DNA from: Candidatus Acetothermia bacterium
GTDB taxonomy: Bacteria > Bipolaricaulota > Bipolaricaulia > Bipolaricaulales > Bipolaricaulaceae
Reading direction: 5' to 3'
DNA: 16,827 nucleotides
Assembly: GCA_003551325.1 (NCBI GenBank)
Contig: PUMK01000021.1
Span: 1-16,827 of the forward strand
The notes beneath the pieces are model-generated. The model was not told where the DNA came from, did not search any database, and saw only the letters and a list, made by a program, of their open reading frames with translations. The first letter of the stretch is position 1. Every line of letters begins with the position of its first letter. Made by a program: the position numbers and the translations under genes. Below, in pieces: positions 755 through 13,127 of this stretch.

Positions 755-1980
755 ACGAGAACATGTGCGTGACGGGGATGCAGAAGATCGCGTGGGCGAG
801 GGAGCATATGCCCGTCCTTGCTACCGTGGAGGAGGAGCTTGCCGCGTCGGGTGTGCTACGCGGGTTGCGGGTGGCCGTAAGCGTCCATCTGGAGGCGAAG
901 ACAGCGCGTCTGGCCCTGGCGCTCAAAGCCGCTGGCGCAGAGGTTGCTGTCACAGGCTCGAACCCTCTGTCAACGCAGGATGATGTGGCCGCCGCCCTGT
1001 CCGCCTCGGGGCCGGCCGTCTACGCGCAGCGTGGTGTGGACGCCGCAGGTTATGAGGCGCATCTCCTGCAGGTGCTCAGGCACCGTCCTCACCTTGTGTT
1101 GGACGATGGAGGGGACCTCACCGCGCTGCTCCACGGGAGCGCGGCCGAACTGGGCCGTGACGTTCGCGGGATCTGTGAGGAGACGACCACAGGCGTTCTG
1201 AGGCTGCGGGCCTTGGCCGCGCAGGGGAAGCTCCGCTATCCGGCAGTTGCGGTCAATGACGCACGGATGAAACACCTGTTCGACAACCGCTACGGAACGG
1301 GCCAGTCCACGTGGGACGCGATCATGCGTACGACGAACCTGAACGTGGCAGGTAAGGTCGTGCTGGTGGCGGGCTACGGATGGTGCGGAAGGGGCATCGC
1401 GCTCCGCGCCCACGGACTGGGAGCCCGGGTGCTTGTCGCGGAGGCCGATCCGGTACGAGCGGCGGAGGCGTTGATGGACGGTTTCGAGGCTGTTTCCGTA
1501 GCCGAGGGTATCAAGAGGGCCGAATTCGTGGTCACGGCGACAGGCTGTTGTGATGTTGTCACCTACGCCGACCTTGTGCAGGCCAACGAAGGGGTCGTGT
1601 TGGCGAATGCCGGCCACTTCGATGTGGAGATCGATGTGGCTGGACTGCGGGAGAGAGCCACCCCACGACCCGTTCGGGAGCATGTGGTAGGGTACGCATT
1701 GCCCGAAGGCCCAACGGTCTATCTCCTTGCCGAGGGACGACTGGTCAACCTCGTTGCAGGTGACGGGCATCCAGTCGAGATCATGGACCTCTCCTTCTCA
1801 CTCCAGGCGTTGTGCCTGGCCTGGTTGGCGGAGCGGTCGGCGGGGCTGGCCGCCGAGGTGCATGCGGTGCCCTCGGAACTCGACGAACGTGTGGCGCGCC
1901 TATTCCTGAGCGCTCGGGGCGGCGCCGTTGAGGATCTCACGGAGAAACAGCGCGCGTACCTTTCGGGGATGGGAACCTGA
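751..1980 (+). CDS. ahcY: Adenosylhomocysteinase-family hydrolase (short Thermotoga/archaeal type)
   Basis: NAD-dependent cytoplasmic hydrolase of the activated methyl cycle, splitting S-adenosylhomocysteine (or a close analogue) into homocysteine and nucleoside. The protein has 409 residues, the short form without the insertion and the long C-terminal tail of the eukaryotic-type enzyme. Visible motifs in order: VHLEAKTA (45-52), TGSNPLSTQDDV (68-79), DDGGD (118-122), EETTTG (143-148), NDARMKHLFDN (169-179, catalytic K174 and D178), the NAD-binding loop GYGWCGRG (198-205), NAGHF with H279, and a terminal LTEKQRAYL. An AGGAGG site at 739-744 lies 6 bases before the ATG, which overlaps the transporter stop. 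The adenine-contacting Thr and Glu of the human enzyme (LHMTVETA) are Glu48 and Lys50 here, as in the Thermotoga-like group, so S-inosylhomocysteine is a possible substrate. The last 44 bases overlap the convergent VWA gene. Confidence 0.93.
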   Translation: MNENMCVTGMQKIAWAREHMPVLATVEEELAASGVLRGLRVAVSVHLEAKTARLALALKAAGAEVAVTGSNPLSTQDDVAAALSASGPAVYAQRGVDAAGYEAHLLQVLRHRPHLVLDDGGDLTALLHGSAAELGRDVRGICEETTTGVLRLRALAAQGKLRYPAVAVNDARMKHLFDNRYGTGQSTWDAIMRTTNLNVAGKVVLVAGYGWCGRGIALRAHGLGARVLVAEADPVRAAEALMDGFEAVSVAEGIKRAEFVVTATGCCDVVTYADLVQANEGVVLANAGHFDVEIDVAGLRERATPRPVREHVVGYALPEGPTVYLLAEGRLVNLVAGDGHPVEIMDLSFSLQALCLAWLAERSAGLAAEVHAVPSELDERVARLFLSARGGAVEDLTEKQRAYLSGMGT

Positions 1981-4402
1981 TCTTACGCAGCGCCAGGTCC
2001 GCGAGGAACGCTGCCGCTGCCGCCCAGAGGAACGATCGCTCCACGGGGAACCACGAACGCCCGGTTCCTGTGGCTGGGGGCAGTTCGTCGCCAAGGACCG
2101 TCCCTCCCGTGAACTCGGCAAGACCGTACAGAGTCTCGAGGTCAACGCCCAGCGACGCGAGCTCCTGGGGATAGGGAAGGGCAAGGCCGATCGTGGTTCC
2201 GTAGAGCCCTTGGTCGTCCCAGAGGCTCAGCACGTGGGGACCGGGCGTGCTGTGAGGAAGTCGCGCTTCATAGCGGCCGGGCGCGGATGGGCGGAACGCC
2301 AGATCAACCTGTGTCCCGGGACCCGTTAGCTCTCCGCGGATCTGGAGCCCGCTGACCCAGCGACCTTCGGCCTCGATATCGAGCGTTACCAGCACGTCAG
2401 CTCCATCAAGGCTCCAGTCTACCTCCACATCGCCTCTGGGTGACCACAGCCAACCGGTGAGCGCTCCCCAGAGCTTCCCCAGAGACGGTGCGTCCATCCA
2501 TCGCGTTGTCCAGCCGCTGCTGAGATCGGTATTGAGCACAGCAACGCGGCCCAGGCCGAGTTGCCAGCCAGCCACAAGCGGATCTCCGTCGGGGGCGATG
2601 AGACCCACTTCCGCTGTGCTCTTGGGAAATGTGAGCAGGTAGCCATCCACTGGAGGCATGTCCAGCCCGGCGATCCCCAGTGACGCGGCACCGGGTCCGG
2701 TAGAGACTGGGAACTCCCCTTCTCGGTAACGGGGTCTCAGTGCCCGCTCCGCCTCACCAATGAAGATGCGGCGAAGGTCACGCGCATCACTAACCACGAT
2801 GAGCTCGCCCCGGCCCGCCTGGGCGAGCGCGCCGAGTGTCACGGGGTCGGCCCCTCGACCTAGGGCGATCGCCGTCACTCCAACGCCTGCTGCGGCCACC
2901 TCTTCGTACAGGTCCTCGAGGTCGGGTCGGGGCAGTGTCTTCCCGTCCGAAAGGAGGACAAGATGACGGATTCGGGCATCGATGCCCTCGAGAGCAGCCA
3001 AGGCCTCGCGCGTTGCCGGAACGAGATCCGTTCCCCCACCGGGCGTCAGCGCACGGAGGGCGGTGTAGAAGTCCTCGGCGATCTCGGCCGCGGGACCGGG
3101 ACGCACCATCCAGTAGGGGTGGCGGTCGAAGGCAAGGGCGCCCACGATGTCCTCCTCATGCATTGTCTCCACCGCTGAAGCGGTGGCTTCCTTCAAGAGA
3201 TCGATGTGCGCCGCACCAGCCGTTGTGGCGGCCATCGAGGCCGAACGGTCGAGCACGAACACAATGGCTGTTGTCGCCTCCTGCAGCCGTCCAGGTACCC
3301 TATAGGTCACCGGAAGCAACGTCTCCACTGCGCCTGCGTAGCCCTCCACGGCATGCCGTCCCTGGACGACAAGCATGTTTCCGCCTCCCGTCACGTAGCC
3401 GCGCAGTGCCGCGATGTCCGTCCGGCTGAGTCCGGCAAGAGGCCAGTTGTCGAACACAAGGACTTCCACACCGGAGAGTTCAGTCGGGGAGAACGTGCGA
3501 ACGACGCGGGTCTCGAGTCCTGCCTCCGCGAGGAGTCGGGCCGCGGCGCCGTCGCCCCCGACCACGAGGGCTGCGGTCGGTTCACCGGCCATCACCACCC
3601 AGTCCAGCCGGTTGTTCTCGGGTACAGGATCATCATCAACGGAGACCTCGAGGGAGAACGTGTGAGGTCCTTGGCGATCGAGTTCCGATGTGAAGGTGAC
3701 CCTGTGCATGCCGGGGGTCAACGTCGTGCCCTCGCGGAGGCGTAGCTCCCCGTTCGCCCACCAGCGCAGCTCCGCCTCACGTTCGGCCGACGCTTCGATG
3801 TGTCCCTCGAGCACGACGGACCCCAGCGGAGCCTGCAGAGGACCCTCCAGCGCGGCAACACGCACGGGATCGTTGATACCTACGGGCAAGACGGAGACAG
3901 GTACGCCACCTTGGCGAGCCCGCACGGCAGCGGCCCACAGGTCCCCCGAGGTTACCTGACCATCCGAAACGAGGACGAGGTGCGCGGGCGTCCCTTCCGC
4001 AACCCCCAAGGCGAGGTCGATGGCCGCAGCGATGTTCGTCTCCAGGGTCTCGGCGACCGGAGGGCCGGGTCCCAGGTCGGGGAGGCCAGGTCCGGGCGCT
4101 CGGGCAAGCGTTGCGCGGGTTGCGAACTCCACAAGCCCTGTCGGCCCGGTGTGTCCGCTCAGGATCTCCGACAGTGCATCGTAGCCCTCTTCGACTGCGG
4201 CGCTCACGCTGCGCGAGCGGTCCACAAGGACGAAGACGCTGGGCTCGACATCCCGCCTGAGGACGTGCGGCTGTGCAAGCGCGAACGTCAGGAGCGCCAT
4301 CGTCAAGGCGCGTCCCCACAACTCCTTGCGACGTGTGATCACAAGGAGCCCCAGAGGTATGAGGAGCGCCGTCAAGGTCCACGGTGACAGGAATCGGATC
4401 AC
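1937..4402 (-). CDS. Large membrane-anchored protein with two VWA domains and a GATase-like region
   Basis: Predicted envelope protein of 821 residues starting at GTG 4402. A longer frame to 4474 exists, but GTG 4402 has GGAGGAG at 4409-4415 (6-base spacing), forms a GTGA overlap with the upstream stop, and begins directly with a hydrophobic segment. Order of parts: two N-terminal helices (about 3-24 and 29-48); VWA domain 1 with MIDAS DRSRS (61-65) and LVSDGQ; an Ig/CARDB-like beta region ending PENNRLDWVV; a glutamine-amidotransferase-like segment (LVVGGDGAA, VEVLVFDNWP, GYVTGGGNMLVVQG; no catalytic Cys apparent); VWA domain 2 with MIDAS DRSAS (385-389), GGGTDL and LLSDGK; a beta-rich part; and a C-terminal helix (RSFLWAAAAAFLADLAL). 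It is the last gene of the MoxR/VWA operon. VWA-GATase fusions of this kind are common in Bat-like loci but lack a defined biochemical role. The 3' end overlaps ahcY by 44 bp. Confidence 0.88.
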   Translation of the reverse strand: MIRFLSPWTLTALLIPLGLLVITRRKELWGRALTMALLTFALAQPHVLRRDVEPSVFVLVDRSRSVSAAVEEGYDALSEILSGHTGPTGLVEFATRATLARAPGPGLPDLGPGPPVAETLETNIAAAIDLALGVAEGTPAHLVLVSDGQVTSGDLWAAAVRARQGGVPVSVLPVGINDPVRVAALEGPLQAPLGSVVLEGHIEASAEREAELRWWANGELRLREGTTLTPGMHRVTFTSELDRQGPHTFSLEVSVDDDPVPENNRLDWVVMAGEPTAALVVGGDGAAARLLAEAGLETRVVRTFSPTELSGVEVLVFDNWPLAGLSRTDIAALRGYVTGGGNMLVVQGRHAVEGYAGAVETLLPVTYRVPGRLQEATTAIVFVLDRSASMAATTAGAAHIDLLKEATASAVETMHEEDIVGALAFDRHPYWMVRPGPAAEIAEDFYTALRALTPGGGTDLVPATREALAALEGIDARIRHLVLLSDGKTLPRPDLEDLYEEVAAAGVGVTAIALGRGADPVTLGALAQAGRGELIVVSDARDLRRIFIGEAERALRPRYREGEFPVSTGPGAASLGIAGLDMPPVDGYLLTFPKSTAEVGLIAPDGDPLVAGWQLGLGRVAVLNTDLSSGWTTRWMDAPSLGKLWGALTGWLWSPRGDVEVDWSLDGADVLVTLDIEAEGRWVSGLQIRGELTGPGTQVDLAFRPSAPGRYEARLPHSTPGPHVLSLWDDQGLYGTTIGLALPYPQELASLGVDLETLYGLAEFTGGTVLGDELPPATGTGRSWFPVERSFLWAAAAAFLADLALRKIRFPSPKGTRAVSP

Positions 4403-6063
4403 GCCCCTCTCCTCCGAGCCAGCAGCCACTCGGTGCCCATGAGCGCCAGCACGGCGGCGCTCAACCAAGGCCACATCGGAGCTTCATGCTCTGTTGGATC
4501 CTGGCTATGGACAGGCACCGCCGTTGGCGCCGCATTGAGAGGTACCTGGGGAAGGTTCGCCGCCACATACCGCTCCCGTCCGCCCTGTTGCAGCGCAAAC
4601 AGGCCTGGCTTGTCGGGCACCCAAACAGTCTCCGCAAGGCCCTCATCCGTGCGTACAGTCGCGCCTGGGGGGAGCATGACGGCACGGCCCACGGTCACCG
4701 CGGTGCTGGGCGGCCCCGGGATCAGCCAAGCAAGGGCGTTGCGCAGCAGAATGGGGTACCCCAACGAAAGGGGCAGATTCGAGCGGGCCAGATGGACGCT
4801 GAGCGAGACCCGCGGTCCGTTCACGTCTCGCCACCGTGCAACCGCGGGGACAGCACCCGACCAGAGCGCCACGTTCGCCCCTTCGGGAAGCGAAAGCTCG
4901 TGAAGGGCGTTCGTGGACCACGATCCTGTGTCCACATGCGTGAGCAGGTGATCGTCCGTGGCGCGCCACGGGCCGGCGGGGGTCAGGGGGCCGCGTGGCG
5001 CCTCAGGGAGGCCTGCCTCGACAAGGATGCAAGGACCATCAGGCGTCCACTCCAGATCCGTGCGCACGACGACGGTGAGGTCCCAGGGTGGGTCGTCTGT
5101 GCGTTCCACCGACGCTGCGGCAGTGAGTGCGGCCCACAGGTAACGGTCCTCTTCACCCTTCCAGCGAATCCGCAACGAAGGTGGGCGGTCGACGGCGTGG
5201 TAGCGCGTGTTGTCGTAGGGAAAGCCGTCGCTGGGGCTCAGCGACGCAACATATGCCGGCCCAACGAAGCCCCACAGGGGAAAGACGAACGTGTCCGCAG
5301 CACCTGGTTCCAACAGCCTTGCCTGCTGGAACGATCGACCTCCGGTCACATCGCGGACGGTGACCACTGTGTCACGGAAGCGCTCCGTGTCGTTACGGAC
5401 GGTGACGAGCGCCTGGTGTCCTGAGCCGTCCGGTTGACCTCGAACCGCAAATGCCTCGATCCCCAGGTTCTCCACCGGAGGCAGAAGCGCCACCTCCACC
5501 TCGGAGTCTTCCGGGGGAGCACCGCTGACCACCACCACACGTTCCAATCCTGGGGGCAGGAGGGCGAGGGCGTGCGACAACGGGGGGCGCTCAGAGAGGT
5601 TGTAGGCCAATCGGCTGATGCCGGCCAGCACCTCCTCTTCCCGTTCAGTGGGGCCGACCAGGAGTTGTGGGGGATCGGTCCAGCCGATGAGGGCCCACGG
5701 CCCCCCGGCATCACGCACCAAAGCCCGGGCACGCTCCTGGGCCTCCTGGAGCCGTCCGTGTGGTGCTGTGGACAACGAGGTGTCGACGATGATGGCGGTG
5801 GCCCCTGCCGGCCTGGTGGTCGAGATGACCGGCGAGGCGAGTGTCAAGGCCATCAGCAGCACAACAAGGACTTGCATGAGCAGCAGCACGTCCGTACGGG
5901 GCAACCACCGTGCGATCGTGCTCAGTGCGTCAGGTTCAACGCGCTCCCACAAGAACAGCGCAGAGACGGGCATATGACGCTCTTGGCGGCGAAGGAGGTA
6001 GAGCGCGATCACCGCAGAAGCGGAGGCGATCCAGGCTAGTGCTCCGGGGACGAGGAGGCTCAT
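4399..6063 (-). CDS. BatA-like VWA membrane protein
   Basis: This 554-residue protein matches the BatA/aerotolerance-regulator N-terminal pattern: a first membrane helix (about 5-25) followed by LYLLRRQERHMPVSALFLWER, a second helix (about 58-78), then a VWA domain with MIDAS motif DTSLS (94-98). The middle region looks beta-rich and extracytoplasmic (for example VTVRNDTERFRDTVVTV, an Ig-like CARDB type stretch). The C-terminus has a helix (MWPWLSAAVLALMGTEWLL) and a basic cytoplasmic end (ARRRGA). The start ATG overlaps the DUF58 stop (ATGA, 6060-6063), and its own stop overlaps the start of the double-VWA gene. In related loci such proteins sit in the membrane and are thought to be remodelled by MoxR ATPases. 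Ligand and exact role are unknown. Confidence 0.88.
   Translation of the reverse strand: MSLLVPGALAWIASASAVIALYLLRRQERHMPVSALFLWERVEPDALSTIARWLPRTDVLLLMQVLVVLLMALTLASPVISTTRPAGATAIIVDTSLSTAPHGRLQEAQERARALVRDAGGPWALIGWTDPPQLLVGPTEREEEVLAGISRLAYNLSERPPLSHALALLPPGLERVVVVSGAPPEDSEVEVALLPPVENLGIEAFAVRGQPDGSGHQALVTVRNDTERFRDTVVTVRDVTGGRSFQQARLLEPGAADTFVFPLWGFVGPAYVASLSPSDGFPYDNTRYHAVDRPPSLRIRWKGEEDRYLWAALTAAASVERTDDPPWDLTVVVRTDLEWTPDGPCILVEAGLPEAPRGPLTPAGPWRATDDHLLTHVDTGSWSTNALHELSLPEGANVALWSGAVPAVARWRDVNGPRVSLSVHLARSNLPLSLGYPILLRNALAWLIPGPPSTAVTVGRAVMLPPGATVRTDEGLAETVWVPDKPGLFALQQGGRERYVAANLPQVPLNAAPTAVPVHSQDPTEHEAPMWPWLSAAVLALMGTEWLLARRRGA
4409..4415 (-). promoter_or_regulatory. Ribosome binding site deciding the start of the double-VWA gene
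   Basis: GGAGGAG on the minus strand lies 6 bases upstream of GTG 4402. It supports this start over the longer in-frame extension to 4474, whose extra residues are arginine-rich and unlike a protein N-terminus. Confidence 0.75.
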
Positions 6064-6932
6064 GGCGGTGTCCGCGCGAGCACCGTCAGGGCAGCCTCCA
6101 CGGTGGGGATTCCGGCGGAGAACAGGAAACGGTCAATGCCAAGCTCATGGCAGACTTCCGTGAGCTCCTGGTTCCACGTCCGAAGGGCTTCCTGGTACGC
6201 TTGCCAGGCAGCTCTGCCCAGCACCAGAGGCCGGTGGTGGTGCGTCTCCACATCAAGCAGCCGGACCTCGCCCAGCCGGGGTGGATCGAGGTCGACGTCG
6301 GCCAGTACCTGGACTGCCGACAGCCGGTGACGCCCATGAAGCACCGCGCTGAGCCCCGTTCTGTAGCCATCGGCGTTGAGGAAGTCGGAGATCACGGCAC
6401 ACGAACCTGCCGGACGGGGGATGCGTGCCCACCGGGCCAACACCTCGTTCAGCCGTTCCCCACCTTGAGGAGTCACCTGTTGCAACCTGCGGAATGTGTC
6501 GACGAGAGCGCCCTTCCCGCGTTGCGGCAGGCGATGGTCGTCCTCGGGTTGCCCCAGACAGTGAACGGCGAATCGATCCTGGTGGCGGTGGGCGAGGAAC
6601 GCCAGCGCAGCTGCGATCTTGCATGCAGCACGCATCTTTGTGGGGGCTCCCTGCGCCATCGAGGCGCTTGTGTCAAGGAGCACGTAAGCCGGGGCCTCCG
6701 CCTCACGGGTGAACACCTTTGTCGCCAAACGCCTTAGGCGCGCGTACACCGTCCAGTCGATCAGGCGGTAGTCGTCACCAGGTTGATAGGGGCGATGATC
6801 GGCGAATTCGAGTGACAGACCCGACCACGGCGACCGGTGCAGCCCCGGTCCAGCACTCCTTACGCGTCGCAGCCACACCGGTGCGCGGGCCAGGGCGCGG
6901 AGCTCGTTGTCCGTCAGTAGGAAGGTGTTCAT
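6060..6932 (-). CDS. DUF58 domain protein (VWA-like)
   Basis: DUF58-family protein of 290 residues, normally encoded beside a MoxR ATPase. Signature: GLSLEF (38-43), RPYQPGDDYRLIDW (47-60), and TKVFTREAEAPAYVLLDTSASM with a complete MIDAS DTSAS (87-91), then a VWA-like fold. ATG 6932 was chosen because it forms an ATGA overlap with the MoxR stop (6929-6932). The longer frame to 7184 is only an antisense-like extension inside moxR, rich in Arg, Cys and His. No good Shine-Dalgarno precedes the ATG, so translation is probably coupled to moxR. There are no obvious membrane helices, so it is probably cytoplasmic or peripheral. DUF58 has no settled biochemical function; partnership with MoxR is inferred from context. 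Confidence 0.92.
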   Translation of the reverse strand: MNTFLLTDNELRALARAPVWLRRVRSAGPGLHRSPWSGLSLEFADHRPYQPGDDYRLIDWTVYARLRRLATKVFTREAEAPAYVLLDTSASMAQGAPTKMRAACKIAAALAFLAHRHQDRFAVHCLGQPEDDHRLPQRGKGALVDTFRRLQQVTPQGGERLNEVLARWARIPRPAGSCAVISDFLNADGYRTGLSAVLHGRHRLSAVQVLADVDLDPPRLGEVRLLDVETHHHRPLVLGRAAWQAYQEALRTWNQELTEVCHELGIDRFLFSAGIPTVEAALTVLARTPP

Positions 6933-7900
6933 GGCGCACGCACGGAATCCGTTACGGTCGTCAGCACATCCCCGGGGGTCACCCCCTCCGCTTCTCCACG
7001 GAAGTTCATGAGCACGCGGTGGACGAGCGCTGGTCGGATGGTCGCACGGATGTCGTCGACCTCGATGTGATACCGGCCGTCTAAGAAGGCGCGCGCCCTG
7101 GCTCCCCAGAGGAGCGCCAGCACACCGCGTGGACTGGACCCGTACTGCACAAATGTGCTGACCACCTCCGGGGCACCAGCGCATCCAGGGTGTGTTGCCA
7201 GCACCAGCCGGACGGCATAGTCGACGAGCGGCTCCGCGACGGCGTAGGTGGCAACGAGCTCTTGGGCTGCGATGACCTCGTCACGGCTCATGACGGACGC
7301 GACACCGGTTGCCTGCAAGGTCGTGTTGCGGCGCGCAATCTCCAGAAGGTCGTCCAGTCCAGGCATCGACACCTCGGCTTTGAACAGGAAACGGTCAACC
7401 TGGGCCTCGGGCAATGGATAGGTCCCTTCCATCTCAATGGGGTTCTGGGTGGCGAAGACGATGAACGGTCGTTCCAGGCGATGCGTTGTGCCGGCCACGG
7501 TCACCTGTTGTTCCTGCATCGCCTCCAGCAGGGCAGCCTGGGTCTTTGGTGTAGCGCGGTTCACCTCGTCGGCGAGCAAGACATGGGCAAACAACGGTCC
7601 GGGCAAGAATCGGAAGGCGCCTTCCTCGGGAAGGAACACGTTCGTCCCCACGATGTCGGCTGGCATGAGATCCGGTGTGCACTGCACCCTCCCGTGATGG
7701 AGCCCCAATGCTGCACTCATCGTGCGAACAAGGAGGGTCTTTCCCAGCCCGGGAACGCCCTCGATCAGCACATGACCACCGCAGAGAACGCCCCACAGAG
7801 CGACCTCGATGAGGTGCTCCTGCCCCACGATCACATGGGCGATCGCTGTCCGAAGGGATGCAACGCTCTCCTGAACAGTCGCCACGGCTTCGTGGTCCAT
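6929..7900 (-). CDS. MoxR-family AAA+ ATPase
   Basis: Cytoplasmic AAA+ ATPase of 323 residues, MoxR type, a presumed chaperone that remodels or matures partner VWA proteins. Walker A is GVPGLGKT (48-55), Walker B LLADEVNRA (108-116), and sensor 1 FATQNP (149-154). The family-specific stretches GRVQCTPDLMPADIVG and EGTYPLPEAQVDRF and a C-terminal sensor-2 region GSSPRGVLAL are all present. The length is typical of the family and no key residue is missing. The ATG at 7900 directly abuts the stop of the upstream gene (TAG then ATG), with GGAGGTG at 7909-7915, 8 bases upstream. The 3' end overlaps DUF58 by 4 bp. The two VWA genes and DUF58 that follow are the expected clients. Confidence 0.95.
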   Translation of the reverse strand: MDHEAVATVQESVASLRTAIAHVIVGQEHLIEVALWGVLCGGHVLIEGVPGLGKTLLVRTMSAALGLHHGRVQCTPDLMPADIVGTNVFLPEEGAFRFLPGPLFAHVLLADEVNRATPKTQAALLEAMQEQQVTVAGTTHRLERPFIVFATQNPIEMEGTYPLPEAQVDRFLFKAEVSMPGLDDLLEIARRNTTLQATGVASVMSRDEVIAAQELVATYAVAEPLVDYAVRLVLATHPGCAGAPEVVSTFVQYGSSPRGVLALLWGARARAFLDGRYHIEVDDIRATIRPALVHRVLMNFRGEAEGVTPGDVLTTVTDSVRAP

Positions 7901-9331
7901 CTAGTGTACACCTCCCGCCTCACGGGTGACGTTCTCGAAGTAGCGCCGGACAACATCGCGCAGTTCCGGGGGTATGGAGCGCGCACGAAGGAGGAGATCG
8001 ACCTCGTGCGGCGTCAGCTCGATGGCTCCTTCGCGCTCGCCTGGGGACTCGGTCGGGACGTCCACCACGAGGTACGTGCGCCAAGCGCCATCATCACTCC
8101 GCACGGCAACCCTCGTCAGATCCCCATCAACCTCCAGCTCGCCGAGGGCGTGGCCGTTCGGAGTGGAAGGGTCGACGTGACCCCTACCGGGCGGGCCGCC
8201 GGCTTCCGGCGCTGCCTTATCGGGCAGGGTTCCAGCTGTCCCCGGGAGCCCGTCGGCCAGCCCGTCACCATTGGAGATCTCTTCGACTCCTTCGGGTAGG
8301 TCCGTCATCCCGACGTGTCGGGACGCGGCGTCCTTGGGCTCGCCGTCTCCCTCACCACTGGGGCGCTGCTCAGCCAAGGTGTCGCTCGGGGCCGCGAGCG
8401 GCGTCCCCGGGTCCTCTTGACGTTCGTCGGGTTGTGGTGCATCCCCGTCGTGCAGGGGTCTTCCCTCCAACACGGCATCGACGGCCTGCTGTGCGGTGGC
8501 CCACGTGTCTGCGTGCTCGCTGCTTGCCGCGCGCCGCACGATCTCGCGGAGATCGTCGCGTGACACCTGATCGGCCAAGGAGGTGATCGCTGCTGCCGGG
8601 ATGCCGTCGATGTCCGGTGAGGCAAGCTCCGAAAGACGCTCGGAAAGCTCCCTCAGCAGCCCTTCCTGTTGTGCGAGGGTTGCGGCCAGCGCCTCGGGGT
8701 CCCCCCACAGCTCGCCGGCTGCCTCAAGGCCGAGGACCGCAGCCAGAAGGTCAGTGTATGGTGAGTAGCCGGTTGTGTGTTCCTGGGAATCGGTGACACG
8801 TGGCACGACCGCGTCCACAGGTGCTGCCGGAACCCCCTCCTCTTCATCAGGAGCCGACACCGCCTGCGCCGAGGGCGGTGGTTCCCCTTCCAGGGCAGGT
8901 GTCCCTTCTCCAAAGGGGAGCCACGTTGCTCCGAGGACGACGATGCCTGCGACCAGCGTGGCAACCTCCCAGCGACCCGTTGCCAGGCGCCACAGTGCCC
9001 AGGGACGCTGAGCGACGTCGGCGGCCAGGAGTCCTGCGAGTCCGGGTGTTCCTTGCTCGACCTGGGCCTCGAGGGCTGCAAGTCGTTCGCCGAGCTGGAG
9101 AGAGCGGCCCAGCGATAGGAGGGCCCTGTGTCGTTGCGTTGGCCAGAGCCAACCCAGGATCCCCCCCAGGGCCACGGCCGACCACACTGCGGGGTGCAAC
9201 TGGAGGCCCATGGGCCCCATGGCCACGGTGACCGCGCCGCACGCCAGAGCCGTCGCTAGCGCTCCTCGGACGGACCGCCGAAGTCCGCTCCAACGGCGCG
9301 CTCTCCGGACGATCTGCTGTGCGCCTTCCAT
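7901..9331 (-). CDS. Membrane-anchored protein with acidic linker and conserved C-terminal motif
   Basis: I do not recognise a named family for this 476-residue protein. The N-terminus is basic (VRRARRWSGLRRSVRG), followed by two close helices (about 22-42 and 49-64), an amphipathic stretch, and a third helix (about 123-140). Residues from about 143 to 430 are rich in Pro, Glu, Asp, Gly and Ala with short helical islands, probably disordered. The C-terminus is more ordered: a short beta-like stretch (LTRVAVRSDDGAWRTYLVVDVP) and then IPPELRDVVRRYFENV near 452-467. From general knowledge, a similar 'IPPEYRdlVrrYF' ending occurs in uncharacterised proteins encoded next to MoxR/DUF58 genes; I cannot check this here. 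ATG 9331 has only a weak GGGTGATGGG upstream and overlaps the preceding gene by 76 bp, so a later start is possible. The stop abuts moxR. Confidence 0.8.
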   Translation of the reverse strand: MEGAQQIVRRARRWSGLRRSVRGALATALACGAVTVAMGPMGLQLHPAVWSAVALGGILGWLWPTQRHRALLSLGRSLQLGERLAALEAQVEQGTPGLAGLLAADVAQRPWALWRLATGRWEVATLVAGIVVLGATWLPFGEGTPALEGEPPPSAQAVSAPDEEEGVPAAPVDAVVPRVTDSQEHTTGYSPYTDLLAAVLGLEAAGELWGDPEALAATLAQQEGLLRELSERLSELASPDIDGIPAAAITSLADQVSRDDLREIVRRAASSEHADTWATAQQAVDAVLEGRPLHDGDAPQPDERQEDPGTPLAAPSDTLAEQRPSGEGDGEPKDAASRHVGMTDLPEGVEEISNGDGLADGLPGTAGTLPDKAAPEAGGPPGRGHVDPSTPNGHALGELEVDGDLTRVAVRSDDGAWRTYLVVDVPTESPGEREGAIELTPHEVDLLLRARSIPPELRDVVRRYFENVTREAGGVH

Positions 9332-9936
9332 CCCATCACCCCCAGGCTCAGGAGGGCCGTCGCCACCGGGATCACCAGTCCTGTGGCTGCCGCGACGAGG
9401 TGCCCTCTCCAGATTTCAGGCACCGCAACCAGTGGACTCAACGTGAGCGGCGAGGGAAGCGGTCCGGCCATGATCATGGCGAGAACAAGGTACTTGGTCA
9501 CGAACCGTCGTTCGTCCAATACTATCACAGTTTCGAGGAGGGCCCCAAGCAGCGCGCAACTCACGAACACGACGCCTGCGTAGGCAAGTACGAGTCCGCT
9601 GTTTGCCCAGGCTGCGCCGGTCCAGCGGGCCGAAGCGGCGACGAACGGTGTGACGAGCGCCCACCCAAGGAGCATCAGCCCGGCCAGTCGCCCCGGCCGT
9701 AGCGCGGCGAGCCTGTCGGCCACCTCGAGGCCAAGCACTGCGAAGAGGGGGCTCAGGGCCCAGAGGAACAGCCTTCCCCGATGAAGAGCCTCCAGGCTAT
9801 CGCTGTAGTCGCCGACCGTAACCGGTGTCAAGGTGCCCACCGCGAACAGTACCCCTGCCAAGAGGAAGAAGCGTTGGAACGAGGGCACCAGCGATTCGGG
9901 AAGCAGTCGTTCAGGGAGTGGTTGACCAATGAACAT
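9256..9936 (-). CDS. Multi-pass membrane protein, unknown function
   Basis: Unrecognised integral membrane protein of 226 residues with about six hydrophobic segments, for example FFLLAGVLFAVGTL, LFLWALSPLFAVLGL, LAGLMLLGWALVTPFVAA, GLVLAYAGVVFVSCALL, YLVLAMIMAGPLP and HLVAAATGLVIPVATALL. The C-terminal 25 residues are polar and lie in the overlap with the next gene. The ATG at 9936 is well supported by GGAGGTG at 9944-9950, 7 bases upstream. The start overlaps the upstream gene by 26 bp. Topology resembles small ABC-2-type permease halves or the membrane partner found in some MoxR/VWA loci, but no signature residue supports a transport assignment. It probably scaffolds or anchors the operon's complex; this is inference from position only. 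Confidence 0.82.
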   Translation of the reverse strand: MFIGQPLPERLLPESLVPSFQRFFLLAGVLFAVGTLTPVTVGDYSDSLEALHRGRLFLWALSPLFAVLGLEVADRLAALRPGRLAGLMLLGWALVTPFVAASARWTGAAWANSGLVLAYAGVVFVSCALLGALLETVIVLDERRFVTKYLVLAMIMAGPLPSPLTLSPLVAVPEIWRGHLVAAATGLVIPVATALLSLGVMGWKAHSRSSGERAVGADFGGPSEER

Positions 9937-11128
9937 GGTGTTCCACCTCCTTCATCCCCTCGCCGGAGACGGTGCGCAGAAAGAAGCCGGCCTCAGCCGC
10001 CGGACCTGGGCGAGCCTCGAGCCAGGCCCACGCTGGGCTTACGGTTGAGGTCTCCCAGCCCGCTGCGGTCTGCGGGGGCACCTTCGCGCCGATCGTCCAC
10101 AGCGTGCGGACCTCACCGCCCACCAGCGAGGCACGGGTTTCCCATCCCTCCTGACCCCATGTCCAGGTGAGGTGGCGGTCGGCCAGCACCTCGTCCGCGG
10201 CGAGCAGATCGACCCACAGCCCCTGAAGCCACACCTCTCGGTCCTGTCGAGAGAACAGACCGCACCATTCCACACAAAACCTATGTGCTGTATCATGTGT
10301 AAAAGACCACTTATGCGTTTTCATACGTAGAGGGGTTTCGTACAAAACCGAAGCAGACAAGACAATACCGAGGAGCGCGCCGAGCGCCACGCCAGGCCAC
10401 CGCGCAACGCCCTGGGCCCAGCGGCGCAAGAGCCACATGCCGCTCAGCAGAAAGCCAGCGGTCCCGATCAGGAAAGCCCACCAGCGACCGCTCTCCAAGG
10501 AAGCGTCGGCCAGGACCTCGCGGAGTTCTTCGCTGGACGGGTGTGGCACAGACGTTGGCCCGCCTTGCTCGCCGGCTAGGAGCACCTCCCAGCCATCAAG
10601 GACGGCCTGGACGTTCGCCGGCAACCGCAGCGTCGGGTCCACCGTGACCGCCGCAATGCCGCTGTACACCGCAAGCTCAAGCGGCAACGCTCCCGGGTCC
10701 CGAACAACAGTTCCGGGGGCCGCCTCTCCCGTCAGCCGTCCCACATGAAGCTCCAGCGGTTGCGTTGCAAGGTGGAAGGGGATTTCGTACCTTGCCAACA
10801 CCTCATCGGCAGCTTCGTAGGTCACGGTCAGTGTTGTACCCCCCGGTCCCAGGTGCCAGGGGAGCACCCAGCGGGCCTCGCTTCCTGGCGCAAGCGGTGC
10901 TGGCAAACGCATCAAGCGGTCCGCCTCGCCTCTCCAGGCGGAGCCGATGCGTTGCTGGACAATGAGTTGGCCGTTGATCGTTGCAGAGCCTTCGTTGCGG
11001 GCTTGCACCCACAGAGGGTTGATCTCGGTGGAGACGGCGCGATCGTCCCAGCCCAGCTCACCCGTGAGGAACACCTGTCCGGAACCTGCGCTGGCGAGTA
11101 AGGCAAGCAGGAGGAAGAACGCGATCAT
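9911..11128 (-). CDS. Secreted/membrane protein with signal peptide and two central helices
   Basis: Unrecognised protein of 405 residues beginning MIAFFLLLALLASAGSGQ, a signal peptide with likely cleavage near residue 17. Residues about 20-200 look like an extracytoplasmic beta-rich region. This includes a segment (ALPLELAVYSGIAAVTVDP, then QAVLDGWEVLLAGEQGG) resembling a degenerate glutamine-amidotransferase-like fold seen in Bat-type proteins; that resemblance is tentative. Two helices follow (about 216-234 and 245-262), then a Trp-rich C-terminal domain of about 140 residues. ATG 11128 overlaps the recombinase stop by 4 bp (ATGA, 11125-11128). The longer frame to 11284 lies inside the recombinase and reads as an arginine-rich shadow. 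Codons for residues 260-289 are unusually AT-rich compared with the rest of the gene. Confidence 0.82.
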   Translation of the reverse strand: MIAFFLLLALLASAGSGQVFLTGELGWDDRAVSTEINPLWVQARNEGSATINGQLIVQQRIGSAWRGEADRLMRLPAPLAPGSEARWVLPWHLGPGGTTLTVTYEAADEVLARYEIPFHLATQPLELHVGRLTGEAAPGTVVRDPGALPLELAVYSGIAAVTVDPTLRLPANVQAVLDGWEVLLAGEQGGPTSVPHPSSEELREVLADASLESGRWWAFLIGTAGFLLSGMWLLRRWAQGVARWPGVALGALLGIVLSASVLYETPLRMKTHKWSFTHDTAHRFCVEWCGLFSRQDREVWLQGLWVDLLAADEVLADRHLTWTWGQEGWETRASLVGGEVRTLWTIGAKVPPQTAAGWETSTVSPAWAWLEARPGPAAEAGFFLRTVSGEGMKEVEHHVHWSTTP

Positions 11129-11742
11129 TGGGGCAGCCCGTTGACCGCATCCAGAGCGTCCTGGGAAAGGACATCGGCGTAAACCTGAGTCGTTCGTATG
11201 GATGCGTGTCCGAGCTGTCGTTGTACCAGACGAAGGTTGAACCGGGATGCGCGATACAGCATCGAAGCGTAGGTATGACGGCACGAGTGGATCGAGAACC
11301 GCTCCGGGATCTCAGCCGCGCGTGCCATCCGCTTGAACATCAGGTACACGGCCTGGCGGCTGAGCGGGCCGCCGCGAGGTGACGGGAACAGCAGTGCGTC
11401 AGGCCCCGTGGACTCGCCCAGGGAGTCCTTCCAGGCAAGGTAGTCCGTCAAGTGCTCCCGAAGCGCAGCGCCCACATCCACACCGCGCTCCTTCCCGCCC
11501 TTCCCCTGACGGACGATGAGTGCAGCATGACCCGGATCCAGAAGGACGTCGCGTACCTTGAGGGCGGTGATCTCCGAAACTCGGAGCCCCGCATCCAGCG
11601 CGATATGCAGGATCGCCCACTCGCGGACGGGGCCGACCCGGCCCGCCTTCCGTGCCTCCAGGGCCTCCTTACGGGCGAACGCCTTGATCCGGCGTACCTG
11701 TTCGGGCGTCATGAAGTCTTCTCGAGTGAGTTCGAGCGGCAT
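11125..11742 (-). CDS. Tyrosine recombinase, catalytic domain only (XerC/D-integrase superfamily)
   Basis: Site-specific recombinase of 205 residues from ATG 11742. All catalytic positions of the tyrosine recombinase family are present: Arg54 in AGLRVSEITAL, a lysine in QGKGGKER (K81 or K84), His152-x-x-Arg155 in HSCRHTYAS, His179 in LGHAS, and the nucleophile Tyr188 in TQVYADV. The N-terminal SAM-like core-binding domain of normal Xer proteins (about 300 residues in total) is missing; only about 40 residues precede the catalytic fold. ATG 11742 has a G-rich Shine-Dalgarno-like AGGGGGGG just upstream; GTG 11778 is an alternative that adds 12 residues. Its stop overlaps the start of the next operon gene by 4 bp, so it is translationally tied to the MoxR/VWA operon. 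The dif-like inverted repeat upstream is a candidate substrate or operator. Confidence 0.93.
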   Translation of the reverse strand: MPLELTREDFMTPEQVRRIKAFARKEALEARKAGRVGPVREWAILHIALDAGLRVSEITALKVRDVLLDPGHAALIVRQGKGGKERGVDVGAALREHLTDYLAWKDSLGESTGPDALLFPSPRGGPLSRQAVYLMFKRMARAAEIPERFSIHSCRHTYASMLYRASRFNLRLVQRQLGHASIRTTQVYADVLSQDALDAVNGLPQ

Positions 11743-11758: not shown

Positions 11759-11790
11759 AGTTTACCAATGGTGCCCACGAGTTTACGAAA
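11759..11790 (+). repeat. Two direct half-site repeats of the dif-like arm
   Basis: AGTTTACCAAT at 11759-11769 and AGTTTACGAAA at 11780-11790 are direct copies (9 and 10 of 11 matches) of the arm AGTTTACAAAA found in the inverted repeat at 11838-11873. They start 21 bases apart, two helical turns, and 62 bases from the intact left arm, close to six turns. They cover the predicted transcription start and leader of the recombinase gene, so they look like operator half-sites. This could be autoregulation by the recombinase or binding by another protein; no binding evidence exists. Confidence 0.6.
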
Positions 11791-11792
11791 GA

Positions 11793-11821: not shown

Positions 11822-11837
11822 GGGCGTTCTGGGGAAC

Positions 11838-11873
11838 GCCGAGTTTACAAAAGGACCCTTTTGTAAACTCGGC
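11838..11873. repeat. 36-bp inverted repeat with dif/Xer-like architecture
   Basis: Two perfect 17-base arms (11838-11854 and 11857-11873) flank a 2-base centre AC. The core at 11842-11869 is 28 bp: arm AGTTTACAAAA, centre GGACCC, arm TTTTGTAAACT. This is the 11-6-11 layout of chromosomal dif sites, and TTTTGTAAACT resembles the conserved dif right arm (general form TTATGTAAACT in Bacillus). It begins 8 bases after the HD-gene stop and 95 bases upstream of the recombinase ATG. It could instead serve as a transcription terminator for the HD gene, but there is no T-tract after either arm and the loop is very small. An operator for a dimeric regulator is the third reading. Confidence 0.7.
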
Positions 11874-11880
11874 CCTCGGA

Positions 11881-12663
11881 TCAGCCGATCGCGTACTTCT
11901 CGATGATCTTGGTCTCCTCACCTTCGATCTCCGCAGAAACATCGATGTACGGGCGGAGCCCTGAACGGCCGAGCTTCTCCTTGAACAGCGTGTCGAGCTG
12001 GAAGATGCCAGCGGAGTTCGACATGCGCACATGGATATGCACCGGTTTCTCGTCTCCGCGGGTTACTTTGACCTTCTCGATCGCCAGCGCAGACACCGAG
12101 TGAATCGTTGGTTCTCCCACGCGGAAGGGTATCCGGGCACGGCCCTTCTCCATATCCAGGGCATCGGCGACTTTGATGATCCCGGCCTCTACGGTGAGCG
12201 GTTCGGCCTCGCGCCGGTGGGCGAACACGGCGTGCATGGTGTCCATGGTCACAGCGGTGAGCATGGGCTCCTCGTACACCCCTTGCAAAAGGTCATCGAG
12301 AAGCCATGGGGCGAGGATGACGGACAGGAGTTCGTGGTCGGTTCGATGGACGGCGTGTCCCACATCGTGCAGCGCCGATGCAAGGAGCACGACAACCTCC
12401 GCATCCTCGATGGTGCCGTTGTGATCAGCGATACCCAATCGCACGCCTGCCTCGTGAAGATACGACAGAATCTTGAGCGCCAACCGGGTGACGATGCGCA
12501 CGTGAACAGGGCCATGGTCATTGACGCGCATGCGGTTGATCGCCGTGATGTTGGACGTTGTCCACAGCGCCTGCATCCGTTGGGATTCGGCGAGGCGCTG
12601 TTTCACCAGGTCGAGCTTGCGCTTGCCCATGGAGGCATGATGCCCTAACACCAGCGATCCCAC
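11881..12663 (-). CDS. HD-domain metal-dependent phosphohydrolase
   Basis: Protein of 260 residues (249 if ATG 12630 is the start) with an HD fold: NDHGPVHVRIVTRLA supplies the first His, SALHDVGHAVHR the HD pair, and KVADALDMEKGRARIPF the distal Asp. A C-terminal alpha/beta part (HSVSALAIEKVKV, VRMSNSAGIFQLDTLF) follows. The same layout, including the 'NSAGIFQ.D' stretch, is familiar from uncharacterised HD proteins of archaea and thermophilic bacteria; the substrate is unknown, with phosphodiester or nucleotide hydrolysis likely. GTG 12663 has AGGAG 5 bases upstream and overlaps the preceding gene by 19 bp. ATG 12630 lacks a Shine-Dalgarno site but gives a more usual-looking N-terminus (MGKRKLDLVKQRL). 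It is probably co-transcribed with the MerR-like gene. The inverted repeat at 11838-11873 begins just after its stop. Confidence 0.85.
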   Translation of the reverse strand: MGSLVLGHHASMGKRKLDLVKQRLAESQRMQALWTTSNITAINRMRVNDHGPVHVRIVTRLALKILSYLHEAGVRLGIADHNGTIEDAEVVVLLASALHDVGHAVHRTDHELLSVILAPWLLDDLLQGVYEEPMLTAVTMDTMHAVFAHRREAEPLTVEAGIIKVADALDMEKGRARIPFRVGEPTIHSVSALAIEKVKVTRGDEKPVHIHVRMSNSAGIFQLDTLFKEKLGRSGLRPYIDVSAEIEGEETKIIEKYAIG

Positions 12664-13067
12664 CAGGGCTCCTGTCCCCTGGTGTCCTCGATCTTGGCCT
12701 CGAGCGCGCGGACCCGTGCTTCGAGGTGCCGGACCTGTTCGGCGAGGTGTTGGATGAAGGCGGGCCAGGCTTGGTCGGGGATTTCCTGGTTTGGTCTTGT
12801 TTGCTCTTCACGCGTACGAAACTCTGGTGCGATTTGTTCAGACTGATAGCGTACGAGTGCAGACGCCTCTTTAAGGGTATGCCCTGTTTCGCACAAAGCT
12901 TGGAGGGCTTGGAGGTACTCCAGGCCACTTTCGGTGACGAGGAGTTGGTTGTTGGGGCCCCGACGAAGGTGCCCTACAAGCAGGTCCCGCAGGGCCTCGA
13001 TGCGATTGCGAACTTGGTGCTCGGTCTCCAGGTTGAGTGTGTCCACGAGTTGGGGGACGGTGTACAC
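12645..13067 (-). CDS. MerR-like helix-turn-helix regulator with C-terminal coiled coil
   Basis: Small protein of 140 residues beginning at GTG 13067 (YTVPQLVDTLNLETEHQVRNRIEALRD). Residues about 3-70 look like a MerR-type winged helix: a recognition-helix-like start, a turn with RRGPNNQLLVTESGL, and a following helix LQALQALCETGHTLKEAS. The C-terminal part has a polar linker and a heptad-like segment (LAEQVRHLEARVRALEAKI) expected to form a dimeric coiled coil, and ends EPWWDRWC. The start has AGGAGG at 13075-13080, 7 bases upstream; the longer frame to 13127 has no support. No metal or drug-binding cysteine cluster is seen, so the inducer is unknown. It heads the pair with the HD gene and may regulate its own promoter, the HD gene or the recombinase control region; these targets are inference. 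Confidence 0.78.
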   Translation of the reverse strand: MYTVPQLVDTLNLETEHQVRNRIEALRDLLVGHLRRGPNNQLLVTESGLEYLQALQALCETGHTLKEASALVRYQSEQIAPEFRTREEQTRPNQEIPDQAWPAFIQHLAEQVRHLEARVRALEAKIEDTRGQEPWWDRWC

Positions 13068-13098
13068 GGTTGCGCCTCCTTTTGTCCGGTTTTGCTCT

Positions 13099-13127
13099 AG
13101 CCTAGCGCCTCCGTGGACCGGGGGCAA
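13099..13127 (-). promoter_or_regulatory. Predicted promoter of the MerR-like/HD gene pair
   Basis: Minus strand TTGCCC (13122-13127, 4 of 6) lies 17 bases from TAGGCT (13099-13104, which keeps the T, A and final T of the -10). Transcription would start near 13092, giving a leader of about 25 bases that contains the AGGAGG site before GTG 13067. Confidence 0.38.

Follow-up and report, generated by a model that had tools for sequence, protein, structure and literature searches.

Several described recombination systems have features in common with the locus reported here. The XerC/XerD/dif/FtsK system contains a 28-bp site at the terminus, in which arms of 11 bp flank a 6-bp centre (11-6-11), and the same type of Xer-like catalytic domain. 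The DNA invertases FimB and FimE, which are devoid of a core-binding domain, are recombinases of about 200 aa according to the length of the NCBIfam models. Sites of the dif type are predicted in 16 phyla in the work reported as PMC3025954. Among the systems with a single recombinase, archaeal XerA/dif is described as FtsK-independent, with an 11-6-11 site at the terminus which is sometimes located beside the gene (PMC5357621, PMC2958812), and XerH/difH and XerS/difSL are described as single recombinases which adjoin their sites (PMC5357621). According to PMC8138268, the characterised simple tyrosine recombinases possess a core-binding domain, and the group named 'Cand' in that work contains Xer-related recombinases of candidate phyla. 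Our literature search found no paper joining Bipolaricaulota with Xer, nor a dimer-resolution system for this candidate phylum, and recombinase, Xer and FtsK go unmentioned in the main text of PMC6092417, the paper on the closed genome.

The window, which is the whole stretch of 16,827 nucleotides analysed here, comes from Candidatus Bipolaricaulota and shows a perfect inverted repeat at 11838..11873 (no strand assigned), with 17-nt arms and the centre AC. The longest perfect arm found in 40 dinucleotide-preserving shuffles of the window, with a loop of up to 10 nt, was 12 nt. The repeat is located between the stop codon of a gene encoding an HD-domain protein (11881..12663, minus strand), which ends 7 nt from it, and a tyrosine recombinase gene (11125..11742, minus strand), beside which the first-pass annotation had placed it. 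Its 28-bp core at 11842..11869 (no strand assigned), the proposed dif, reads AGTTTACAAAA GGACCC TTTTGTAAACT and has two 11-bp arms and a 6-bp centre, which is the layout of dif and the geometry claimed for it beforehand; the central hexamer is GGACCC on the plus strand and GGGTCC in the orientation of the gene. The arm TTTTGTAAACT presumably resembles the right arm of Bacillus subtilis dif. The search of the whole genome suggested in the first-pass annotation gave a single copy of the site at three or fewer mismatches over 24 fixed bases, in a draft of 1.83 Mb, 367 contigs and 58% completeness. At 11822-11840, overlapping one edge of the palindrome, the minus strand shows another short inverted repeat, GGCGTTC CCCA GAACGCC, which folds into a hairpin of its own.

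The recombinase gene encodes a protein with the catalytic domain only (PF00589, E 1.5e-33). Since M1, at the ATG of 11742, is common to all 19 aligned orthologues, the protein is most likely of 205 aa, and not of 217 aa as the longest frame would give; the C-terminal LPQ is likewise common to the 19. Residues R54, K81, H152, R155, H179 and Y188 are invariant in 19 of 19 orthologues and, by analogy, would form the catalytic set (RKHRH and the tyrosine). The start of the protein coincides with the point where Xer catalytic domains begin, and its AlphaFold2 model (mean pLDDT 79, pTM 0.80, from 19 sequences) also begins at the catalytic domain, with XerA as the top and XerH as the second fold match in the PDB. 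Among the NCBIfam models, XerD and XerC score highest, with 118 bits each (cut-offs of 330 and 335), and the scores are also below the cut-offs of XerA (112 of 220 bits) and XerS (87 of 267 bits). The core-binding domain of Xer-type simple tyrosine recombinases is absent from the 205-aa protein. A split protein, with the core-binding part encoded separately, was rejected, since PF02899 is found nowhere in the two closed genomes of relatives, G003 and G014.

Orthologues of the recombinase were found in 25 relatives, with 58-81% identity. Named genome records contain 48 orthologue loci, 31 of which (L033-L063) span the whole protein: most are labelled as Candidatus Bipolaricaulota or Acetothermia MAGs, one as Thermotoga and three as uncultured bacterium. 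The protein record of Candidatus Bipolaricaulis anaerobius is named 'conserved protein of unknown function'. The orthologues cluster together in a tree which carries long-branch warnings and was used for their grouping only.

Compared with archaeal XerA/dif, the present system is bacterial, scores below the XerA cut-off, lacks the N-terminal core-binding domain and shows a near-perfect palindromic site with additional half-sites at the promoter. XerH and XerS have about 360 aa, against 205 aa here, and XerS is described as FtsK-dependent (PMC2958812), whereas no FtsK over the cut-off was found in the genomes examined here. The differences from XerC/XerD/FtsK are the single recombinase, the lack of a detected FtsK and of a core-binding domain, and scores of about one third of the cut-offs, and those from FimB/FimE are the single site, the lack of an invertible segment and scores far below the cut-off. 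The unusual traits of the locus are a recombinase made of the catalytic domain only, a proposed dif which is nearly palindromic and two half-sites at the recombinase promoter.

The palindrome is most probably the chromosomal dif of a single-recombinase Xer system for dimer resolution, a function deduced from the site itself, its conservation, its copy number, its co-occurrence with the gene, its place in two closed relatives and the finding of no other tyrosine recombinase there, all of which are observed in the sequences. Points against this reading are the missing core-binding domain, the class genomes devoid of the gene and a full-length Xer-like recombinase in the window's own genome. Among the options offered by the first-pass annotation, a dimer-resolution site next to the gene of its own single Xer-type recombinase is the one which fits best.

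Conservation was read in 39 orthologue loci: 31 from the named records, seven others and the window. All 39 show an 11-6-11 site before the start codon, with its centre 72-265 nt ahead. Six inner offsets never vary on either side, among them the G and C which border the four central bases. The outer arms change from lineage to lineage, for the most part symmetrically: the window has AGTTTAC, and other loci have ACTTGAC, TCGCAAC or TTTTAAC. Between 7 and 11 of the 11 arm pairs are formed across the loci and, since pairing is imperfect in some of them, what is conserved is the half-site rather than a hairpin. The core with the AGTTTAC arms, used as a probe in 40 genomes, matched only its own genome because the outer arms differ between genera, and the shared inner core was used instead. 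In the f2-type loci L019, L056, L058, L060, L061, L062 and L026, a GACANNTGTC-like box, recognised by eye, is located directly after the right arm and is possibly a site for another protein.

Among 100 genomes of the class, the gene is present in 61 (E up to 1e-40). The exact inner core is found in 54 of these 61 and in none of the 39 genomes without the gene; the reversed pattern, used as a control, matched in three of the 100. All 54 core-bearing genomes contain one copy just upstream of the gene, on the same contig, and the other seven gene-bearing genomes show cores with one mismatch (G055 was matched to locus L054 by coordinates). The exact core is single in 53 of the 54, and G011 has two, the second on a phage contig; neither in these 53 genomes nor in the window's own genome, with its one copy, does the site form a family repeated behind unrelated genes, which the first-pass annotation had named as an outcome contrary to its proposal. 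A second copy in G005 lies on a diverged contig, together with the last part of the HD gene and the first part of the recombinase gene, and is most simply explained by a related strain in the bin. Gene and site are widespread in the class and not universal: the 39 genomes without the gene include nearly complete ones, which means that the group can do without the system, and G009 (96% complete) and G031 (90%) show no PF00589 match at all.

The window's own genome contains further tyrosine recombinases on contigs C223 (full-length), C100 and C139, none of which reaches the cut-off of XerC, XerD or XerA; a standard XerC/XerD pair, which would have spoken against the proposal, was therefore not found among them. 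The C223 recombinase, which adjoins a tRNA-Pro gene, is the nearest of the three, with 217 bits for XerC (cut-off 335) and 195 for XerA (cut-off 220). A cut-off tyrosine recombinase on C76 adjoins a tRNA-Gly gene. Thirteen loci of other tyrosine recombinases in the same genomes were examined from -500 to +400, and none showed a palindrome in which 10 or more of the 11 arm positions pair. A different short tyrosine recombinase, of 183-213 aa and with a VEPIRDP-like or QPIRDP-like start, is present in G012, G019, G022 (genus g13), G028 and on C139 of the own genome, in genomes mostly devoid of the present gene; no such palindrome was found near the copies of G012, G019, G022 and G028.

The closed genomes G003 and G014 belong to one genus and are thus not fully independent. 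Each contains one PF00589 gene, which is this recombinase, and a single site at three or fewer mismatches, located at 0.47 (G003) and 0.54 (G014) of the circle from dnaA. The skew was sampled in 40 stretches of 20 kb per genome, with GC3 corrected for gene direction. The corrected skew of G003 shows its best break at 880-922 kb, with the site at 887.7 kb. The corrected cumulative curve of G014 peaks at 822 kb and stays high until 888 kb, with the site at 895.0 kb, and the corrected two-break fit stops 40-73 kb before the site, at 822-855 kb. The uncorrected skew disagrees with this placement, its switch being at 965-1007 kb in G003 and at 1119-1152 kb in G014; it was set aside as noisy and partly off the site. 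These positions support a location near the terminus, so that the coincidence with a skew switch anticipated for a dif is clear in G003 and moderate in G014. In G075, a single scaffold with N gaps, the distance between the site and a partial dnaA is 0.38 of the circle, and the skew is uninformative.

None of 40 genomes contained an FtsK (PF01580) over the cut-off, and G009 gave one match below the threshold; as only 8 of 14 control genomes were over the cut-off, a divergent motor could escape this detection. Since no FtsK was detected, the sites would pair and the recombinase become active independently of this motor, in the manner reported for XerA of archaea.

The centres were compared in 58 oriented sites, three gene-bearing genomes being left out, and 19 of them are distinct. 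None is palindromic (0 of 58 oriented, 0 of 19 distinct), with about three expected from the column make-up, and the same absence arose in 96 of 5000 column shuffles; relatedness was uncontrolled in both comparisons. The 19 distinct centres include five reverse-complement pairs, and at least five such pairs arose by chance in 0 of 5000 column shuffles and in 62 of 5000 simulations with independent columns (relatedness again uncontrolled). The sister loci L003 and L050 are 94.8% identical over 3.3 kb, and their 28-mers differ only by GT to AC, an exact reversal of the two central bases. Reversed centres of this kind hint at occasional antiparallel exchange. With arms so nearly alike, the site would owe its direction mainly to the centre, which is not palindromic.

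Between the site and the start codon, the window shows two direct half-sites on the minus strand: H1, CTTTCGTAAACT, at 11780..11791, with 11 of 12 positions matching the dif arm, and H2, CATTGGTAAACT, at 11759..11770, with 10 of 12. They start 49 nt (H1) and 28 nt (H2) ahead of the ATG, are spaced 21 bp apart and share the AAACT ending of the dif arms of the window. All 22 f1 loci contain two direct half-sites 21 bp apart, beginning 63-65 nt downstream of the site centre. When the letters of this stretch were shuffled, the observed score was matched in 0 of 500 shuffles in 19 loci and in 3-6 of 500 in three. The half-sites fit the arms of their own locus more closely than they fit shuffled arms (a score of 178, compared with 162 on average and reached in 0 of 5000), with relatedness uncontrolled. 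By eye, H1 overlaps a -10 element (TTGACA, 17 nt and TAAAGT in L006). The simplest reading of the half-sites is autoregulation by the recombinase, which would thereby bind its own promoter.

An unlikely alternative is that the palindrome is only an operator, bound by the recombinase or by a different regulator to control the recombinase gene, recombination taking place elsewhere or never. The site is always near the gene promoter, related half-sites stand at the promoter in 22 of 22 f1 loci, and co-occurrence and adjacency alone would fit an operator equally well. Points against an operator are the terminus position in the two closed genomes, the 11-6-11 layout with a centre which is never palindromic, and the copy on a phage contig; moreover, the gene has invariant catalytic residues and is the only tyrosine recombinase of the two closed genomes, and the f1 site lies about 64 nt upstream of half-sites which, by eye, overlap the likely -10.

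The phage copies also bear on a second alternative, held to be very unlikely, in which the palindrome is mainly an attB integration site and the adjacent gene is the integrase of the element. The recombinase belongs to the integrase superfamily, and similar sites are found on a phage contig of G011 and on two IMG/VR contigs. Contig C8 of G011 (L240, 17617 bases) contains terminase, portal, head and tail genes and a dif-like site centred at 417, just before the terminase gene; read in reverse, this site has GACC and the whole right arm in common with the host site of G011. Against an attB, C8 itself, which may be incomplete, shows no PF00589 match. The neighbourhood of the chromosomal site is stable as well: of 38 other loci, 35 have an HD homologue on the upstream side of the site and 35 have a homologue of the next gene (12645..13127, minus strand), with no phage genes between, and the orthologues group in the tree, with its long-branch warnings. 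Of the HD exceptions, L057 is cut off by the end of its contig, and in L025 and L026 the 1.5 kb examined contains no HD homologue. Integration, the other use proposed in the first-pass annotation, is thus possible as a second role of the site, given the phage contig of G011, of which no integrated copy was seen, and is not the best fit as its main one. Phages which exploit the host XerCD at dif are already reported, and the dimer-resolution system described for the Legionellales, which belong to a different phylum, was likewise revealed by mobile elements integrating there (PMC9765430).

In IMG/VR, a 22-base f2 pattern matched two contigs, L247 (centre at 8322) and L248 (centre at 6531), and its reversed control none. 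Both contain terminase genes and the core CGCAACAAAAG-N4-CTTTTGTTGCG, and L248 additionally bears two tyrosine recombinases. Among 120 listed relatives (of 7997) of the L247 terminase, the two named by organism are Eisenbacteria and Methanosarcina, so that these two contigs carry little weight as evidence. No IMG/VR viral contig matched the stricter patterns of f1 and f5, and an 18-base pattern, which matched six contigs of 25-38% GC, was left out of the evidence.

The gene at 12645..13127 is MerR-like by eye and has no Pfam, NCBIfam or PHROG match. On the other side of the recombinase, the window shows a long run of minus-strand genes (1937-11284) around a MoxR-type AAA ATPase gene at 6929-7900, whose neighbours are Bat-like or VWA-like by eye.

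It is highly improbable that the palindrome acts as an RNA hairpin which terminates transcription of the HD gene: it directly follows the HD stop codon and the RNA folds well (z -4.3), but there is no T run, the terminator scan does not contain it, Rfam gives no match, the relatives pair imperfectly while the inner half-site letters are kept, and there is one copy per genome. One end of an invertible segment, as in a FimB/FimE-like switch, is scarcely credible, for although the protein has the size of an invertase and weakly matches the two models of tyrosine-type DNA invertases in NCBIfam (40 bits for a cut-off of 221, and 37 for one of 222), no second copy exists in the own draft genome, G003 or G014, and this single copy disfavours the inversion site offered in the first-pass annotation.

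For the dimer-resolution system, the mechanism proposed is that four 205-aa subunits would bind two dif sites, one on each 11-bp arm, cleave them and exchange strands across the 6-bp centre, so that a circular chromosome dimer would give two monomers after replication; the two promoter half-sites probably let the recombinase limit its own expression. Binding, cleavage, dimer resolution and autoregulation are all predicted here from sequence comparison. A more specific proposal is put forward tentatively: a minimal homotetrameric Xer made of the catalytic domain, working without FtsK on an essentially palindromic dif which is polarised by its four central bases, sometimes recombines in antiparallel, leaving reversed centres, and is self-limiting through the half-sites.

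If this reading is correct, the locus would provide a dimer-resolution system for a candidate phylum in which the literature search found none. It would also be a natural minimal Xer, an example of a housekeeping-type Xer reaction from which both the N-terminal domain that grips the DNA and FtsK are missing. A recombinase of 205 aa and a short symmetric site would make an easy subject in vitro, and the variable centres would offer a direct route to the question of how direction is maintained, or lost, at a site of such symmetry.
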